DNA from: Methanosarcina sp. MTP4
GTDB lineage: Archaea > Halobacteriota > Methanosarcinia > Methanosarcinales > Methanosarcinaceae
NCBI RefSeq assembly: GCF_000970045.1
Contig: NZ_CP009505.1
Coordinates: 2,356,001-2,420,000, forward strand
DNA length: 64,000 nt
Reading direction: 5' to 3'
A program made the position numbers and the translations under genes. The notes under the pieces were generated by a model, which worked only from the letters and a program-made list of their open reading frames with translations, was not told where the DNA came from and searched no databases. Shown here one piece after another: positions 10,924 through 20,201 of the stretch (position 1 is the stretch's first letter; the number at the start of each line of letters is the position of its first letter).

Positions 10924-11613
10924 ATGCTATTTATCTTTGGCAGAGGTTCAAGGTTGATCTTTAAAAAAATACCCATTCACATGTTTGAAAACTTCCACAA
11001 TATATTTAGTGGAAGTACTGAAAAAACCTTCAATATTTGCAGGGAATGCGGGGGGGCATGTGAACATAATAAGATCGGAACCCTGCTGCCCGGGGAAAAA
11101 GAGTATATGGCCTCAAAGCTGGGCATAAGCGTCTACGAATTCAAAACCCGATACCTGGATATCCTGGAAATGGACGATGGGACCCGGATTGATGTATTAA
11201 AATTAGGAAAATTGTGCCCTTTTTTGAACAGAGAAACCGACGAGTGCGAATGCCGGGAATTTAAGGCTATCCTTTGCAAGATATATCCTGTTGTTTTCAA
11301 AGTTGAGGGAGAAGGAGTAACTTTTATAATAGACAGCTGGTGTCAGCTATCGAAGAAAAAGGAGTGCAAGAGTTATTTCGAAACTGCAATACCCCTTTTT
11401 TCAGCTCTCCCTGTTCCGGCGGAGTGGTTCAGGTACGTAGCAAGCTACGATGACCTTTGCTTTGATTACGACCAGCTGAAAAAGCACAGGAAAGGTAAAA
11501 AACCCTGTGAAGTGTTTTCCCTGCAAGAACTGCTTGACCTGCAGAAGGACGATTTGGGAGCAGAACGCCTGCAGCTCTATTCCGAAACGGAAACCGAAAA
11601 ACTCATGGTTTAA
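10924..11613 (+). CDS. YkgJ-type Cys-cluster (zinc/iron-chelating) protein
   Basis: The protein carries the CxxCxxxC-type cluster of the YkgJ/Fli-B-like family (CRECGGAC near residue 40). Further down is the characteristic C-P-F-L-x6-C-x-C ... C-x-I-Y-P block (CPFLNRETDECEC and LCKIYP). Members bind zinc or an iron-sulfur centre and their role is mostly unknown. The C-terminal third is specific to this protein. The start is uncertain: ATG 10924 gives 229 residues, an in-frame ATG at 10981 gives 210, and neither has a good ribosome site. It is divergent from the beta-lactamase-like gene, and tnpB begins about 150 bp downstream. Confidence 0.75.
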   Translation: MLFIFGRGSRLIFKKIPIHMFENFHNIFSGSTEKTFNICRECGGACEHNKIGTLLPGEKEYMASKLGISVYEFKTRYLDILEMDDGTRIDVLKLGKLCPFLNRETDECECREFKAILCKIYPVVFKVEGEGVTFIIDSWCQLSKKKECKSYFETAIPLFSALPVPAEWFRYVASYDDLCFDYDQLKKHRKGKKPCEVFSLQELLDLQKDDLGAERLQLYSETETEKLMV

Positions 11614-11765
11614 CTTTGCAGGCGGGAAGGCTCCTTCCTCGGAGGCCGTAGGCCGACAGGTGGGGGATGAAAGCCGTCCACTTCCCGGAACTACAATAAA
11701 ATAACTTTTTACAAATTGTTCAAAGACTCGTATATATATGCAAACTGACATATTCTAAATGTCCC

Positions 11766-12913
11766 ATGCAACTAACTGAAAAGATCAAAATTCATCCTAC
11801 AGAAGAACAAGTCGATGTTCTCTGGACCACATCTAACCTCTGTAGGTTGACCTATAATTTTGCTCTGACCGAAAGACAGGAAGCGTGGAAAAACGAGAAC
11901 AGGCGTGTCAGGTATGTGGAACAACAAAACAAGCTACCCAAGATAAAAGAAAAGTTTCCTCAGTACAAAATGGTCTATTCCAAAGTGTTGCAGGGAGTTC
12001 TCAAAAAGCTTGACGCTAACTACAAATCATTTTTTGCCCTTCGAAAAAACGGGGATACAGGTGCAAGACCACCAAAACACAGGGGAAAAACTACTTTTTC
12101 ACAATAGTATACAACCAGAGTGGTTTCAAGTTCGGGGACGGAAACGTTTCTTTTTCCCATAAGGTCAACGAAGTTCCTCTGTCTTTTGAGATTGATAGGG
12201 GGTTCGAAAAAAGGAAAGTCAAACAGGTAGATATCTACAACAGTGACCCCTATAAAGCCAGAGGAGACTGGTTTATCTCAGTTACCTATGACTACGAACC
12301 GGAAGTTCAGTACCATGATAACGGTCTGTATCAGGCGATTGATGCAGGGGTTACGAAAATGGTAACTGCTGTCAACTCTTACGGAAAGTTTTTCGAAGCA
12401 AAAACCGCAAGACCTGATAAGTACTGGAACAAAAAAATTGATACTCTGAAATCCAGGAGAGATCACTGCAAGAAGAATAGCAGAAGATGGCAGAGGTTCA
12501 ATAGCAACGTCAAAAAAATGGAGAGAAAAAGATCTAACCAGAATAAGGATTATCAGCACAAACTCTCCCTAAAGATGGTTAAAAACACGAAGACTAACAC
12601 CATCATAGTAGGGGATCTGAAAGTCAAGAAAATGGCTAAGTCAAAAAAACTGAAAGGAAAGCGGAAAAAAGGACTTAACAGGTCTACTCAGAATCAGGGT
12701 TTCATTTCTCGCTTCATCGGATTTTTGACCTACAAAGCTGAAAAAGTAGGTAAGAAAGTAATAAAAATCGATGAAAGTTATACGTCAAAAGAATGTTACG
12801 TTTGCAAAAAACGGCATGATATGCCACTATATAAGCGAACTATGTCTTGTGATTGTGGAAACGTTATAGACAGGGATAAAAACAGTGCTATCAACATCAT
12901 GGAACGTTTCCTA
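11766..12913 (+). pseudogene. tnpB: IS200/IS605-type tnpB, 5' exon, with a -1 frameshift
   Basis: The RNA-guided nuclease/transposon protein is read here in two frames. Frame one (11766-12107) gives the N-terminal helical part (MQLTEKIKIHPTEEQVDVLW ...) and stops at TAG. The frame one base back is open from 12090 and carries the rest: RuvC-I (AIDAGVTKM), RuvC-II region (IIVGDLKVKKMA), a zinc ribbon (CYVCKK ... CDCG) and RuvC-III (DRDKNSAINIM). The RuvC-II position where TnpB usually has Glu is Gly here, so activity is doubtful. The frame change falls on G GGA AAA at 12083-12089. The exon ends at CTA 12911-12913, where the group II intron begins. Repairing the frame and removing the intron gives a 416-residue TnpB. 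Confidence 0.88.
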
Positions 12914-13457
12914 GTGCGACAAGAAGCTACAATATGAATTGCGGAAACGCTACCCCTTCCATTTGGGGTAATCCTACTATGACATGCGTAGATGGTAACG
13001 TCAGGGTATGAAGCTCATAGGACAATGTAGAGAAGTTTGGAAGTCTAATCTGGATCATCTGCTAGGATAAGAATACTATGAAGAACGTAATGTGAACCAT
13101 CATAAGAATCGTAAGTTCCGACAAGCGAAAATAGACTGATACGCTTGAACCAAAAGGTAAAAAATCTGACCATTATGGCTTAGGTAACATAATGGGAAAT
13201 GGACATTAGATTTTCGGTTCAAAGATGGCTTCTAAGGTACTCACAATTATTCATATTATAGAACTTGGTAAGCCCTATATGTTCCCTTCGGGGTAGGAAT
13301 TCCGTAAGGAAGGACGAAGATATAGAGGGTAGAGGAAAGGAGTAAAAAGCGAAAGACAATTCGTAATGAATTGTATAAGGGTTCCAAATTTGCCCCAATC
13401 TGAAAGGATGCAGACTTACTCTATGGTATCTAAACGTAAGAAATGAAGGTATGACCT

Positions 13458-15233
13458 ATGAAAGTAAGTTATTCAAATACGTTGATTGAAAATGCTGAAA
13501 CACTCGCAGTAGATCTTCTTTGGAGAGACACCAAAGAAGAAAACTATCACAGTGTACAGACTAAATCAATCGGCGAGAAGCTTACTGACAAGCAGCAACT
13601 GAAATTCCAATGGAATCACATCAACTGGAACAAAGTGGAAACGCACGTTAATAGGCTACAAGTCAGGATTACGAAAGCAGTCATTGAAGGAAACTGGAAT
13701 TTAGTTAAAAGACTAAGCTATTTGCTAACTCATTCCCACTATGCTAAACTGTTAGCTGTCAGGAATGTTATTCAAAATAAGGGTAAAAGAACGGCAGGGG
13801 TCGATGGAGAATTGTGGTCAACACCTGAATCCAAGATGAATGCCGCTCTAAGTCTAACTGATAAGAGGTATAAGGCAAAACCACTGAAACGAGTTTACAT
13901 TGAGAAATATGGGTCTAATAAGAAAAGACCTCTAGGTATCCCTTCCATGTATGATAGAGCCATGCAATCACTCTATGCACTAGCATTAAACCCGATTGCA
14001 GAAGCAACAGCAGACAAACGTTCTTTCGGATTTAGAAAATTCAGAAGTACACAGGATGCTTGCAGTCAAATTTTTTCACGGTTAAGTAGGAGATTTGACG
14101 CTCAATGGATACTAGAAGGTGACATAAGAGGTTGCTTTGACAACATTAGTCACCAATGGTTACTAGATAACATCCCAATGGACAAATCAGTTCTAAAGCA
14201 ATTCCTCAAAGCGGGGTTTGTTTTTGATCGAACTCTATTTCCAACAAATGCAGGAACTCCACAAGGCGGTATTATATCACCAATACTGGCTAACATGACC
14301 TTAGATGGAATTGAAAACCTATTGATTGATAAATACCATCGACATCCAAAAAGTGGAAAAATAACAAGCAATCAGCAAGCAAAATACAAAGTAAACTTTG
14401 TAAGATACGCTGATGATTTTATTGTCACTGCAAAGACAAAAGAAATAGTGGAAGAAATTAAAGGACTGATTAAAGACTTCTTGAAGGATAAAGGTCTGGA
14501 ACTATCGGAAGAAAAAACATTAATAACCCATATTGACGTTGGTTTTGACTTTTTAGGTTGGAATTTCAAAAAATACAAAGGAAAGCTTCTTATTAAACCA
14601 TCCAAGAAATCTATCGAGAAAGTTACCAAGAAAATCAGTAACTTAATCAAGAAAAATAAAACCCGGTCACAAGAAGCTCTAATTGACACTCTTAACCCAA
14701 TCATAACTGGGTGGTCTAACTACCATCAAAGTGTGGTATCTAAAGCGACATTTCAATCAATAGATAACAAAATATGGCTTATGCTTTGGAGATGGACTAA
14801 GAGAAGACACCCCATGAAATCAAGAAATTGGATTGCACATAAATACTGGCATCCCAAAGAAACGAGAAAATGGGTATTTTCAACATCGGAAAACCAACTT
14901 AAATTACTAGCAAATAAGATTATAGTCAGACACACTCTAGTCAAGTTAGACAAAAATCCATACCTCGATAGCGACTACTTTGAAAAACGCAAATTCAATT
15001 TAGGTGCAAAAAAGCTATCAGGGAAATTCAAAAAAGTATGGGAAAACCAAAAAGGCAAATGTCCCATCTGTAATCTTTCGATTAACATTAATGCTAATGC
15101 AGATGAAAGACCATTGCATCACATAGACAGAAATCGAAAGAATAACAGTACACCTAACTTAGTCTATCTACATGCACATTGTCACAGACAATACCATGCA
15201 ACTAATCCAAGACCGAAAACTGCTGCCCTATAA
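13458..15233 (+). CDS. ltrA: Group II intron reverse transcriptase/maturase with HNH endonuclease
   Basis: The 591-residue intron-encoded protein has the RT fingers and palm (PLGIPSMYDRAMQ; ILEGDIRGCFDNISH; GTPQGGIISPILANM), with the catalytic FVRYADDF box intact. A maturase X domain follows (GWSNYHQSVVSKATF). At the C-terminus is an HNH/zinc module (CPICN ... HHIDRNRKNNSTPNL ... HAHCHRQYH). All parts needed for splicing assistance, target nicking and reverse transcription are present and uninterrupted, so the intron may still be mobile. The gene lies in domain IV, and domain V begins 17 bp after its stop. Base composition is AT-rich compared with the host genes around it, consistent with acquisition by transfer. 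Confidence 0.95.
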   Translation: MKVSYSNTLIENAETLAVDLLWRDTKEENYHSVQTKSIGEKLTDKQQLKFQWNHINWNKVETHVNRLQVRITKAVIEGNWNLVKRLSYLLTHSHYAKLLAVRNVIQNKGKRTAGVDGELWSTPESKMNAALSLTDKRYKAKPLKRVYIEKYGSNKKRPLGIPSMYDRAMQSLYALALNPIAEATADKRSFGFRKFRSTQDACSQIFSRLSRRFDAQWILEGDIRGCFDNISHQWLLDNIPMDKSVLKQFLKAGFVFDRTLFPTNAGTPQGGIISPILANMTLDGIENLLIDKYHRHPKSGKITSNQQAKYKVNFVRYADDFIVTAKTKEIVEEIKGLIKDFLKDKGLELSEEKTLITHIDVGFDFLGWNFKKYKGKLLIKPSKKSIEKVTKKISNLIKKNKTRSQEALIDTLNPIITGWSNYHQSVVSKATFQSIDNKIWLMLWRWTKRRHPMKSRNWIAHKYWHPKETRKWVFSTSENQLKLLANKIIVRHTLVKLDKNPYLDSDYFEKRKFNLGAKKLSGKFKKVWENQKGKCPICNLSININANADERPLHHIDRNRKNNSTPNLVYLHAHCHRQYHATNPRPKTAAL

Positions 15234-15250
15234 AGGGTTACAAGATACTT

Positions 15251-15284
15251 GAGCTGTATGAGGTGAAAGTCTCACGTACAGTTC
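15251..15284 (+). ncRNA. Group II intron domain V
   Basis: A 34-nt hairpin: GAGCTGTATGAG pairs with CTCACGTACAGTTC around a GAAA tetraloop, with the usual two-base bulge and the AGC catalytic triad at the base. This is the most conserved part of the intron ribozyme. Confidence 0.93.
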
Positions 15285-15325
15285 TTAGGCGAGAAAGGGG
15301 GAGCAATCCCCCCGACTTAGCCGAC

Positions 15326-15427
15326 TCACAGAATGCCTTGTGGACAGGCTATCGGTACTTTGCCGATAATCTTCGACAAACAGGCTTGAAGATGGGTATT
15401 GAGTTCTTAGAGCCGATACATGGATGA
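15326..15427 (+). pseudogene. tnpB: tnpB 3' exon
   Basis: Thirty-three codons continue TnpB after the intron (SQNALWTGYRYFADNLRQ ...) to TGA at 15425-15427. The SQNALWTGYR stretch is the usual C-terminal sequence of this TnpB group. The frame stays open for some distance after the TGA (FKYSKEAPSS ...), so the stop may be a recent nonsense change that shortened the protein slightly. Confidence 0.85.
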
Positions 15428-15446
15428 TTCAAGTACTCGAAGGAAG

Positions 15447-15480
15447 CCCCTTCCTCGACTCCGAAGGAGGCAGGTAGGGG
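15447..15480 (+). repeat. Probable right-end hairpin of the IS200/IS605-type element
   Basis: CCCCTTCCT (15447-15455) pairs with AGGTAGGGG (15472-15480), followed by TAGTTCAC. A subterminal hairpin right after tnpB is where such elements end and where their guide RNA terminates. The exact boundary is not determined. A similar relic-like tail lies before tnpB at about 11625-11690. Confidence 0.5.
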
Positions 15481-15606
15481 TAGTTCACCTTTCATGAAAG
15501 AAAACTTTCCAGGGGCTTGAGCCGCAGAAAGGTTATTTCCCCCTGACCCAAAACTCGATCCGGAAAAGAGAAGCTTGGAGCAGGGAGGAAGAAAGTAACT
15601 ACAGGC

Positions 15607-17799
15607 TCAGTCCTTTTCCTCTTCCTCCTGCACTTCATCATTGGAGACGGTGCATTTTTTGCCTTTTATCGGCAATGTAAAAGCAAATGTGCTTCCTTCC
15701 CCTGCCTCGCTCCTGAACCAGACATACCCACCGTGCAGCTGGACAATCTGCTTGACCAGGGAAAGGCCTAACCCGGTACCCTGGAACTTTTTGGAGGCAA
15801 AGGAATCGACCTGGCTGAAAGGTTTGAAGAGTTTTTTCTGGTCCTTTTCCTCGATGCCTATTCCGGTATCCGTAACCGCGATTTCTACCATTTCCCCTTT
15901 CTTTTTCGCCTCGACCCTTACTAGCCCTTTTTCGTTAGAGAATTTTATGGCGTTGTCCAGGAGATTATAGAGGACCTGGATAAAGCGGGCTTCGTCAGCC
16001 CGGATGCTTGTAAGCTCGCGACCCACATCGATTTTGATTTCGATGTTTTTCCGGGAGGCGAGGGGGGCCAGCAGGGACTTTACACTGTCAAGCTTGCCGA
16101 CAAGTCCGAATTCACTGTACTTCAGCTCCATCTTTCCGGCTTCCACCTTTGAAAGGTCCAGGATATCATTGATCAGGTTAAGCAGATGCTTTCCACTCTT
16201 AGAGATGTTCCCCACGGACTTCAACTGCTTTTCATTCAGTCCCCCGAAGACCTTCTCACGCAGGAGGTCCGAGAACCCTATGATCGAGTTAAGAGGGGTC
16301 CTCAGTTCATGGCTCATGTTGGCCAGGAATTCGCTCTTGGTGCGGTTTGCAGCCTCTGCAATTTGCTTTTCCTGAAAGAGTTTCTCGGCTTTCTTGCTTT
16401 CCGTAATGTCTCTCCAGGTCTCCAGGATGCCTATGATCTTTCCGGCATCATCGGTCACGGGAACCGCCTGGATTGACCATACCATCCCGTCCCCCGCAGA
16501 AAGTTCCCCGGCTTTTTTCTCTCCTCTTTCAAAGGTCTCTTCCAGGCGCAGGTGTTCGATAGCCTGGCTGCTTATTCCGGGAGCAACTCTCTGGGAAAGC
16601 CCAACTGCCTCTTCGAGCTCCATTTTCATGTGTTCAAGCGCAGCCTTATTAGCCCAGATAATATTAAGGGCAGGGTCTACAAAAACGACCAGTTCATTGA
16701 GTGAGTCGAGGATAACCTTCTTCTCCCGTTCCTGGGTTTGAAGTTCCTGTTCCGCCAGGTCGATTTCGTTCAGCATTCCGTTAATCTCGCGGGACAGCCT
16801 GAACAGCTCATCATTGTCTTTGAGCTCCAGCCTTTTGGAAAGGTCTTTTTCAGCCCTGACCTTTGTCACGAAATCGTCAATCTCGGTTAACCTTGAAACA
16901 AAAAGACGGTCCAGGGCAAGCTTGACTCCGACACCGGTCAAAAGCCCTGTCAGCAGCAGGAAAAAGTACATATAATCAAGGGTTTTCTTGCCGTGGGAAT
17001 AAAGATCCCTCGGGAAATCCGCCCTGATGATAAGGGCAGGTCCACCTGCGATATCATTCAATTCAAAATAACCGGCGACCCTTTCTTCGTTTAGGGGTTC
17101 TACCACGATCCTTCCGGGGACCTCCGTAACACTTGAATATTCATTAAGAAAGTCCGGAGGCATTTCCTCGTCTACCCTGTACATGAGCAGGGAAGAACAG
17201 GTAAGTTCTTTAAAAGATTCCAGAAGGCCGCTATCGAAGTACCTCCCAAAAATAAGAGTGCCGCGCACAGGCCCTTCATACTTTGTGGAGAGAATCGGGT
17301 GGCAGGCAATAAACATCGGGCCCTCGGCAAGTAAAACAAAGCCGCTTATCTCATCGTCCTCTTCTTCCATAAGGAGAGTGCCGTCTTCAATCAATTCCAG
17401 CAGTCCGGCAGGTACGGGCACCTCTTCCTCGGTTTCAATGTCTATGGATTTCGCATATACAAGGGCCCCTGAGTCATTAACAAAAAGCATGAGGTTAACA
17501 TCAATTCCTGCAAGGGTCTCGTTTTGCAGGTCCACGTCAATGTATTCCTGGTTCTGGTCTTCTACAAACCGGCAGGTATCGTCCCAGCAAGCCCAATCCT
17601 GGACACTGTAATCAAGATATCCCTGTTTTGTGGCAACGGCGTTTTGAACCCGCTCTACGTTCTCCAGTGTATCCTCCGCTTCAAGCTCCAAAAAATTCGA
17701 TAGCTGCATATTATGGGTAAATGTAAATGCGGCAGTCAAAACTGCAAAAATTAAGAGAGTTATGATGAGTACTTTTTTACTTATATCCGTGCTGTGCAC
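15607..17799 (-). CDS. CHASE4 sensor histidine kinase
   Basis: The 730-residue membrane kinase has, in order: membrane helix 1 (about 9-30); an extracellular CHASE4 sensor (about 31-275, with the W-A-C-W-D-D-T motif); helix 2 (YMYFFLLLTGLLTGVGV); HAMP (EIDDFVTKVRAEKDLSKRL); and a PAS domain (about 355-475). HisKA follows with the phospho-accepting His in ANMSHELRTPLNS (about residue 497), then HATPase_c with N-box NLLDNAIKFS, G1 DTGIGIE and G2 GTGLGLSLVKQ. All catalytic boxes are intact. No receiver or response regulator lies next to it. It is a paralog of the gene at 18069-20201, from which it is separated by about 270 AT-rich bases, so each probably has its own promoter. Signal unknown. Confidence 0.93.
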   Translation of the reverse strand: MHSTDISKKVLIITLLIFAVLTAAFTFTHNMQLSNFLELEAEDTLENVERVQNAVATKQGYLDYSVQDWACWDDTCRFVEDQNQEYIDVDLQNETLAGIDVNLMLFVNDSGALVYAKSIDIETEEEVPVPAGLLELIEDGTLLMEEEDDEISGFVLLAEGPMFIACHPILSTKYEGPVRGTLIFGRYFDSGLLESFKELTCSSLLMYRVDEEMPPDFLNEYSSVTEVPGRIVVEPLNEERVAGYFELNDIAGGPALIIRADFPRDLYSHGKKTLDYMYFFLLLTGLLTGVGVKLALDRLFVSRLTEIDDFVTKVRAEKDLSKRLELKDNDELFRLSREINGMLNEIDLAEQELQTQEREKKVILDSLNELVVFVDPALNIIWANKAALEHMKMELEEAVGLSQRVAPGISSQAIEHLRLEETFERGEKKAGELSAGDGMVWSIQAVPVTDDAGKIIGILETWRDITESKKAEKLFQEKQIAEAANRTKSEFLANMSHELRTPLNSIIGFSDLLREKVFGGLNEKQLKSVGNISKSGKHLLNLINDILDLSKVEAGKMELKYSEFGLVGKLDSVKSLLAPLASRKNIEIKIDVGRELTSIRADEARFIQVLYNLLDNAIKFSNEKGLVRVEAKKKGEMVEIAVTDTGIGIEEKDQKKLFKPFSQVDSFASKKFQGTGLGLSLVKQIVQLHGGYVWFRSEAGEGSTFAFTLPIKGKKCTVSNDEVQEEEEKD

Positions 17800-18068: not shown

Positions 18069-20201
18069 TTATTTTTTCCCGGTTTTCAGGGGGATGGAAA
18101 AACCAAAGGTACTGCCCTTTCCAGCTTCACTTTCAAACCACACGTGCCCTCCGTGGAGCTGCACAATCTTCTTCACAAGGACAAGCCCAAGGCCGGTCCC
18201 CTGGTATTTTTTGGCTGCAAATGAATCGATCTGACTGAAAGGTTTAAACAGCCTTTCACGACCCTCCTTTTCGATACCAATCCCCTCGTCCCTTACCCCG
18301 ATCCATACCATATTCCCCTTCAGAGCTCCATTCACCTCTATAGTCCCTTTTCTGGGAGAGAACTTGATGGCATTGCTGAGCAGGTTTTCCATCACCTGGA
18401 TGAACTTGTTCCTGTCAGCCCGGATTTCGGGGATTTTGGGGTCAACATCGATATTGATCTCTATTTCCTTCTCGGAAGCTATAGGAGACATGAGGGACTT
18501 AATTTCGGCCAGGGTTTCCTGAAGCGAAAACTCCTCATAATTGAGTTCCATCTTCCCTGCTTCGATTTTTGAAAAATCAAGGAGGTCGTTGATCAGGGAA
18601 AGGAGATGCTTTCCGTTTTTGGAGATGTTATTGACGTAGCGAAGCTGTTTTTCATTCAATTCCCCGAAAAGCTGTTCGATAAGGAGGTCCGAGAACCCTA
18701 TGATCGAGTTAAGGGGGGTCCGAAGTTCATGGCTCATGTTGGCGAGGAACTCGCTTTTGGTCCGGCTTGCAGTTTCGGCAAGTTCCTTTTCATGGAGGAA
18801 TTTTTCCGCTTTTTTCCTTTCCGTTATGTCAAGGCAGGTTTCCAGGATTCCGATGATCTTTCCAGCCTCATCTTTTACGGGAATTGCCTGGATAAACCAC
18901 AGCTTCCCGTCAGGAGATGCAAACTCCCCGGATTTTGTCCTCCCGGAAAGGGTTTCTTCAAGCTCCAGGGCCCTGAAGACTCTTCCGCTTATCCCGGTGG
19001 CTTCCTGCTGCCTAAATCCAAGAGCATCATCAAGTTTCACGCCCATATGCCGGAGAGCGGCTTTATTGGCCCATACGACCCTGAAGTCGGTATCCAGGAA
19101 AATAAGCATCTCGTTTAGGGAATCGAGTATTGTCCTTTTTTCGGTATCCCGAGTCTTGATTTCCTTTCCGGCAAGACTTATGTCATCCAGCATTCCGTTG
19201 ATCCCCGCAGAAAGCCGGTACAGTTCATCCTCCCCTTTGATTTTAAGCCTCTTTGAGAGGTCTTTTTCCTTTCGCACCCTGTCAACGAAATCATCAATTT
19301 CACCCAGGCGGGAAATAAAGAGGCTGTCCAGGAGAATCTTGCTTCCCATTCCCATGACAATGCCCGTTGCGAGCAAGAGGAAATAGAGATAATACAGGAT
19401 TTTCTGGCCGTGGGCATACAGGTCCCTCGAAAGGTCCTGCCGGATCATGACAACAGGTTTTCCGTCAACCCCGTCCAATACAAAGTAAGCTGAAATCGTA
19501 TCTTCCCCGGAAGGGAGAATCACAACTTTATCTGATGTTTCGGGAAAAACCGCATGAAAGTCAGAGGTCATTTCCCTGTCCACCCTTGAAACGAGCAGGG
19601 AAGACCGGGTAACATCCTCAATAGAACCCACGAATTCATCGTCAAGACATCTCCCGAGAATTAATGTACCCTCCACAGGCCCTTCATGGTCACTCCGGAG
19701 TATGGACCTTGATGCAAGGAGCACCGGCATTTCGTCAAACAGGACAACTCCTCTTACGAAGTCGTTTTCACTTTCCGCAAGAAAAGGACCGTCTTTTATC
19801 ATTTCCTCCACCCCGCCAGGGAGAGGCACGGCTTCACCGGTGTTCAGGTTCACATACTTTGAATAAACAATGTCTCCGGAAGCATTAACGAAAAGAAAGA
19901 TATTTACTTCAAGATCTAACATTGACTCATTACCCAGGTTCGAATCAATGTATTCGGGATCTAAGGTCTGGACAAATTCATATGTGTCATCCCAGTAGCC
20001 CCAGTCCCGGGCGATATGATCAAGATAATCATACTGGGTTTCAACGGCGTTCTGCACCCATTCCACGTTCTTCAACGTATCCTCTTTCTCAAGATCCTGA
20101 AAGCTCGATAATAAAATGCTTTGAGAAGAAAACGCCAGCGTACAGGTTAACAGCGCAAAAATGAAAATAACTGCAAAAAGAACTTTTTTACCTATATCCA
20201 T
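18069..20201 (-). CDS. CHASE4 sensor histidine kinase, tandem paralog
   Basis: The 710-residue protein is built like its neighbour at 15607: helix 1, CHASE4 domain (with DWGYWDDTYEF), helix 2 (YYLYFLLLATGIVMGMGS), HAMP, PAS (about 350-470), HisKA (ANMSHELRTPLNS) and HATPase_c (NLLSNAIKFS, DEGIGIE, GTGLGLVLVKK). The kinase half is nearly the same in both proteins. The sensor half has diverged more, as expected if the duplicated pair now responds to different cues. The gene starts at ATG 20201 and has its own AT-rich upstream region. No partner regulator is adjacent. Confidence 0.92.
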   Translation of the reverse strand: MDIGKKVLFAVIFIFALLTCTLAFSSQSILLSSFQDLEKEDTLKNVEWVQNAVETQYDYLDHIARDWGYWDDTYEFVQTLDPEYIDSNLGNESMLDLEVNIFLFVNASGDIVYSKYVNLNTGEAVPLPGGVEEMIKDGPFLAESENDFVRGVVLFDEMPVLLASRSILRSDHEGPVEGTLILGRCLDDEFVGSIEDVTRSSLLVSRVDREMTSDFHAVFPETSDKVVILPSGEDTISAYFVLDGVDGKPVVMIRQDLSRDLYAHGQKILYYLYFLLLATGIVMGMGSKILLDSLFISRLGEIDDFVDRVRKEKDLSKRLKIKGEDELYRLSAGINGMLDDISLAGKEIKTRDTEKRTILDSLNEMLIFLDTDFRVVWANKAALRHMGVKLDDALGFRQQEATGISGRVFRALELEETLSGRTKSGEFASPDGKLWFIQAIPVKDEAGKIIGILETCLDITERKKAEKFLHEKELAETASRTKSEFLANMSHELRTPLNSIIGFSDLLIEQLFGELNEKQLRYVNNISKNGKHLLSLINDLLDFSKIEAGKMELNYEEFSLQETLAEIKSLMSPIASEKEIEINIDVDPKIPEIRADRNKFIQVMENLLSNAIKFSPRKGTIEVNGALKGNMVWIGVRDEGIGIEKEGRERLFKPFSQIDSFAAKKYQGTGLGLVLVKKIVQLHGGHVWFESEAGKGSTFGFSIPLKTGKK

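Follow-up and report, generated by a model that had tools for sequence, protein, structure and literature searches.

The 64,000-nucleotide stretch of Methanosarcina sp. MTP4 DNA analysed here (the window) carries a 2412-bp group II intron of the CL/IIB type at positions 12914-15325 of the plus strand, delimited by Rfam matches, an empty site elsewhere in the genome and a family alignment, and inserted in the tnpB gene of an IS200/IS605-family element. The explanation that best accounts for the locus as a whole, and that we consider very probable, is that a CL/IIB intron retrohomed into one frameshifted copy of tnpB, with an intact paralogue elsewhere in the genome. Of two full IS copies, one would have received the mobile intron by retrohoming, in the 3' part of its tnpB, after site recognition through EBS1, EBS2 and EBS3 pairing; precise splicing would bring the TnpB C-terminus back together in frame. 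The frameshifted locus would nevertheless encode no full TnpB even once spliced, the intact TnpB being encoded by the intron-free paralogue. The right end and the presumed omega RNA region remain whole, so the locus may still give a guide RNA in trans. The sequences demonstrate the boundaries, the empty site, the pairings, the frameshift and the integrity of the ORF; splicing activity, mobility, and the production and use of a guide RNA in trans are what we infer from them.

An intron-free copy in the same genome defines the intron boundaries

The original prediction had proposed a search for empty sites, and one is present in the source genome itself: the same IS200/IS605-type element occurs without the intron at C1:1981495-1982872 on the minus strand (locus L047). 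The joined flanks of the window intron match this copy at 1448 of 1469 positions with the junction 12913/15326 unbroken. The junction sequence of the empty site is CGTTTCCTA^TCACAG, and the empty target sequence without the intron is GGAACGTTTCCTA/TCACAG. Because the intron-free copy joins at this point, the intron is exactly 12914-15325; its boundaries are proven by the paralogue, which is the strongest boundary evidence. Of the proposed feature 12914-15427, the start therefore stands and the end does not: the intron stops at 15325, and 15427 is where the tnpB stop codon finishes. The exons joined at 12913/15326 read ERFL/SQNALWTGYR in frame, as had been claimed, and the empty copy shows this very reading. 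The locus is a clear example from nature of nesting between two mobile elements, and the unoccupied site is present in the same genome.

The two ends of the intron were also matched by Rfam models, D1-D4-7 (RF02012) at 12951-13097 (E 2.4e-11, 66.1 bits) and Intron_gpII (RF00029) at 15249-15325 (E 1e-9, 61.8 bits), in agreement with the predicted group II intron starting with GTGCGAC and ending with ...CCGAC. The conserved GUGYG start is present as GTGCG in the family alignment. The source genome consists of one contig (4.21 Mb, 99.91% complete), its relatives being Methanosarcinaceae-like methanogens; it contains this one full copy of the intron and one deleted relative, lacking the ORF, at C1:2034879-2035564 (L048).

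Splicing anatomy and the intron-encoded protein

Domains V and VI occupy 15249-15325 (plus strand) by Rfam match and by fold, and they fold well (z = -3.9), with the branch-point A15319 bulged in the domain VI fold 7 nt from the intron 3' end. Both the domain V and the branch A seven bases from the end that had been read from the sequence are thus borne out. The intron-encoded protein (IEP) of 591 aa, at 13458-15233 on the plus strand, comprises RVT_N, RVT_1 (with YADD), GIIM and a C-terminal HNH-type Cys/His endonuclease region, and its best solved match is the maturase chain 6me0 (E 6.8e-169, residues 46-583). The HNH part was identified by its Cys/His residues and by the 6me0 alignment, which extends as far as residue 583; Pfam gave no HNH match of its own for this part of the IEP. 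The RT/maturase/HNH ORF is apparently intact. Together with its length and host group, the match to 6me0 points to an intron of the CL type. The structural characters expected of a mobile CL/IIB group II intron are found here, namely domain V and the GUGYG start, EBS1-IBS1, EBS2-IBS2 and IIB-type EBS3-IBS3 pairings, a bulged A, and an IEP with RT, maturase and endonuclease regions. Such anatomy supports splice competence and precise excision of the window intron, and the earlier description of a retroelement nested precisely, with splice-competent anatomy, in an RNA-guided nuclease gene holds.

Covariation identifies the exon-binding sites

For nine distinct introns of the family, the 5' region was aligned with the intron's own 5' exon, and intron columns covarying with the exons were sought; ten introns outside the column selection, some of them near-copies, served as a check set. 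Two sites emerged among the nine introns, EBS1 at 13181 (score 47.0 of 54, permuted mean 21.6) and EBS2 at 13114 (43.5 of 54, permuted mean 17.7), and for each of them 0 of 20,000 permutations scored as high; in 60 trials with permuted exons, no position anywhere scored above 31.5. Within the check set (n=10), EBS1 and EBS2 matched their own exons at means of 5.0 and 4.7 of 6 positions, compared with 3.2 and 2.2 for swapped exons.

In the window copy, EBS1 (TAGGTAAC, 13181-13188, plus strand, as are all of these elements) is placed in a stem loop by its hairpin fold. It pairs at 7/8 positions, with one internal mismatch, with GTTTCCTA (12906-12913), the extended form of the covarying IBS1 TTCCTA (12908-12913). 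EBS2 (AGTTCC, 13114-13119) covaries with the 5' exons and IBS2 (GGAAC) is at 12901-12905, where one of the changes in the intron-free copy is located (window position 12901). EBS3, a single column (A at 13222), pairs with IBS3 T15326, and this match was observed in 7/7 introns of the discovery set and 10/10 of the check set, the latter with three pair types. These pairings at covarying sites support the intron boundaries, and the family-wide map of EBS1, EBS2 and EBS3 pairing helps to predict insertion sites of these archaeal introns.

By contrast, the TAGGAA at 13294-13299 (plus strand), originally taken as EBS1 for its match to IBS1 TTCCTA, is without covariation. It lies inside a conserved GGTAGRA motif that is near-constant among the nine introns despite their differing exons (permutation p = 0.25), and it was rejected as a chance match confined to this copy.

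The one EBS1 mismatch could be read as a sign that the intron is an inert relic which neither splices nor moves, making the locus a doubly inactivated transposon. The single full copy with its one deleted relative in the genome and the frameshift in the host gene point the same way. However, the complete IEP ORF with its YADD and HNH residues, the intact 5' and 3' ends and the intact domain V/VI all argue against a relic, and we regard this reading as doubtful.

The host tnpB gene carries a frameshift upstream of the intron

Exon 1 of tnpB lies at 11766-12913 and exon 2 (SQNALWTGYR...EPIHG stop) at 15326-15427, both on the plus strand, the latter delimited by its sequence and by the empty copy. 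The TnpB of this element carries the domains PF12323 (HTH_OrfB_IS605), PF01385 (OrfB_IS605) and PF07282 (Cas12f1-like_TNB) and matches ISDra2 TnpB (8bf8, E 1.2e-15). A single base is deleted at 12085-12090 (plus strand), about 0.8 kb upstream of the intron, leaving five As near 12085 versus six in the intact copy, so that the ORF stops at 12107 and TnpB ends after 113 aa. The deletion is derived, because the frame is kept in the intact paralogue and in three homologues from other genomes. The intron-free paralogue encodes an intact TnpB of 416 aa containing ERFLSQNALWTGYR (L047:1557-2807).

A functional RNA-guided nuclease locus calls for a tnpB frame that is continuous after splicing, and the frame here is broken near 12085. 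Because of this separate frameshift, splicing alone would not yield a working TnpB, and the claim that removal of the intron restores the protein reduces to restoration of the C-terminal junction. The accompanying suggestion, that the intron is tolerated because it splices out, is weak for the window copy, whose gene is frameshifted upstream and has an intact paralogue elsewhere. Judged from its sequence, the window tnpB reads as a pseudogene.

That the lesion lies in a run of As raises the possibility that it is a sequencing error and that splicing restores a functional TnpB from the window copy. Homopolymer indels are common assembly errors, and the remaining frame is open (12086-12913) and shares 99% identity with that of the intact paralogue; if the deletion were such an error, the spliced TnpB would be intact. 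However, a single 4.21-Mb contig with 99.91% completeness does not suggest poor assembly. Beyond the deletion, four non-synonymous changes (E59K, A277T, Q357K, P415H) and four synonymous ones are derived on the window copy, against four non-synonymous and one synonymous on the intron-free copy (both polarised with L052 and L054), although the differences between the two copies are too few for inferring selection or for separating decay from constraint. We consider a sequencing error unlikely and retain the derived frameshift in the preferred explanation.

In the intact TnpB (L047:1557-2807) and its homologues, the usual position of the RuvC-II glutamate is occupied by G (IVGDL), a glutamate being found in IDE(S/R)YTS instead. 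A few aligned TnpB homologues have (I/V)FEDL, and about as many have VNP in place of IDE. The IVGDL/IDE pattern of this TnpB family looks like a relocated catalytic residue.

The right end and the presumed omega RNA region are left whole

Ends shared with the second copy place the IS200/IS605-family element, which is of the tnpB-only form, at 11614-15488 (plus strand), 3875 bp with the intron and 1463 bp without it. The uninterrupted pre-insertion site TTTAA/CTTTCATG in the related genome G001 indicates that the element, which has defined ends, was inserted after TTTAA and generated no target duplication. This TTTAA (11609-11613, plus strand) is a putative TAM, and the upstream gene terminates at its TAA. 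Within the IS ends there is no further ORF for a TnpA, and the element has no tnpA of its own; one Y1_Tnp gene is found elsewhere in the source genome. Isolated-tnpB elements are a recognised form, and tnpA is thus not required (PMC8612924).

As the original prediction stated, the intron lies just upstream of the presumed guide RNA region, with 163 nt of 3' exon and right end following it uninterrupted. By analogy with ISDra2 and from its fold (z = -3.2), the presumed omega RNA (reRNA) scaffold would span the tnpB 3' end and the right end at 15350-15488, and a presumed 16-nt guide would come from the flanking host DNA at 15489-15504 (both plus strand; PMC8612924). Given that the ISDra2 reRNA measures about 150 nt including its 16-nt guide (PMC8612924) and that the 163 nt are uninterrupted, a whole omega RNA could come from either the spliced or the unspliced transcript. 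The locus shows that a group II intron can occupy tnpB with the guide RNA region untouched. Since the guide RNA donor and the intact nuclease gene are separate, use of the guide in trans by the paralogue is testable.

On C1, the IS right end recurs in nine more short copies (L038-L046; about 38-98 bp, 82-92% identical). Nearly all of them lack the left end, and they either belong to other tnpB elements or are solo ends. A tandem array of an AT-rich, GAAGGTAACAAGAAGAAATGAAAAGT-like unit of about 27 bp lies upstream of the intact IS copy (L047). On the minus strand of the window, two adjacent and similar histidine-kinase-like genes (15607-17799 and 18069-20201; 730 and 710 aa) are probably a tandem duplication.

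Related introns lie mostly in other genes or between genes

Family introns in related genomes are located in DDE transposase genes (L008, L024), istB (L166), a group II intron RT gene (L011), an SNase-like gene (L143) and at apparently intergenic positions. Among plasmid sequences, related introns were all that a search recovered. One of them, with a largely deleted ORF, splits a different tnpB (L119:2306-3208, in G111:C106). This intron is 85% identical to the window intron in the 5' region, and its own EBS1 pairs 6/6. Joining its exons produces a single open frame, about 407 aa long, that carries OrfB_IS605 and TNB domains. A TnpB profile scan over about 80 intron neighbourhoods of related genomes, the earlier loci and 43 loci of a wider genome scan revealed a clear flanking TnpB at the window and L119 only. 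From these sequences, tnpB has been struck at least twice independently, at different sites, by introns of a family commonly lodged in mobile genes.

These two independent cases could suggest specialisation of the intron for tnpB, with modulation of TnpB versus guide RNA production. By contrast, insertion site and EBS1 differ between the two introns, relatives are mostly in DDE transposase, istB, intron RT and SNase genes or intergenic, and among the surveyed loci TnpB fragments flank only two introns plus one weak match; such specialisation is therefore very improbable. It is just as hard to credit the broader proposal that the archaeal CL lineage repeatedly uses tnpB genes as safe sites and that splicing sets the TnpB:omega RNA ratio; if true, splicing would keep TnpB compatible with its overlapping guide RNA precursor. 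We rejected tnpB as a recurrent homing site, given the clear flanking TnpB at two surveyed loci only. The weak match, a TnpB fragment (E 2e-5) on the opposite strand, lies beside a group II intron domain V in L187 (G097:C1:2556600-2560800).

Comparison with known nested elements

No paper on a group II intron within tnpB was found in the open-access literature, the scope of our search. The window locus is real, well defined and ordinary in kind, representing a known type of nesting; the facts added are its empty site, corrected exon-binding sites, a frameshift and a second tnpB case. A well-studied precedent is RmInt1, which interrupts the ISRm2011-2 transposase gene of Sinorhizobium meliloti (PMC4238363). 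There too a group II intron interrupts an IS gene that needs splicing for its expression, but RmInt1 belongs to class D/IIB3 and its host gene encodes a transposase rather than an RNA-guided nuclease (PMC4238363). In Thermosynechococcus elongatus, F4 introns are described in ISEL1, of the IS200 family, and the introns insert preferentially into other introns or into insertion elements (PMC2882425). Those CL/IIB1 introns resemble the window intron in lying inside an IS200-family element and in preferring other mobile elements, and differ in being bacterial and in comprising three introns at one conserved site in ISEL1 (PMC2882425).

Closer in host are the archaeal CL1A introns of Methanomicrobia, which share the host group and probably the intron type (PMC8919778), and the nested introns of Methanosarcina, which share the host group and likewise lie in other mobile elements, although the arrays described are intron-in-intron whereas the window intron is in tnpB (PMC4424553). 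IStrons also combine a self-splicing RNA with an IS, so that splicing hides the insertion, but in them a group I intron shields the host gene from the IS, whereas the intron in the window is a group II retroelement lodged in tnpB itself (PMC4227781).
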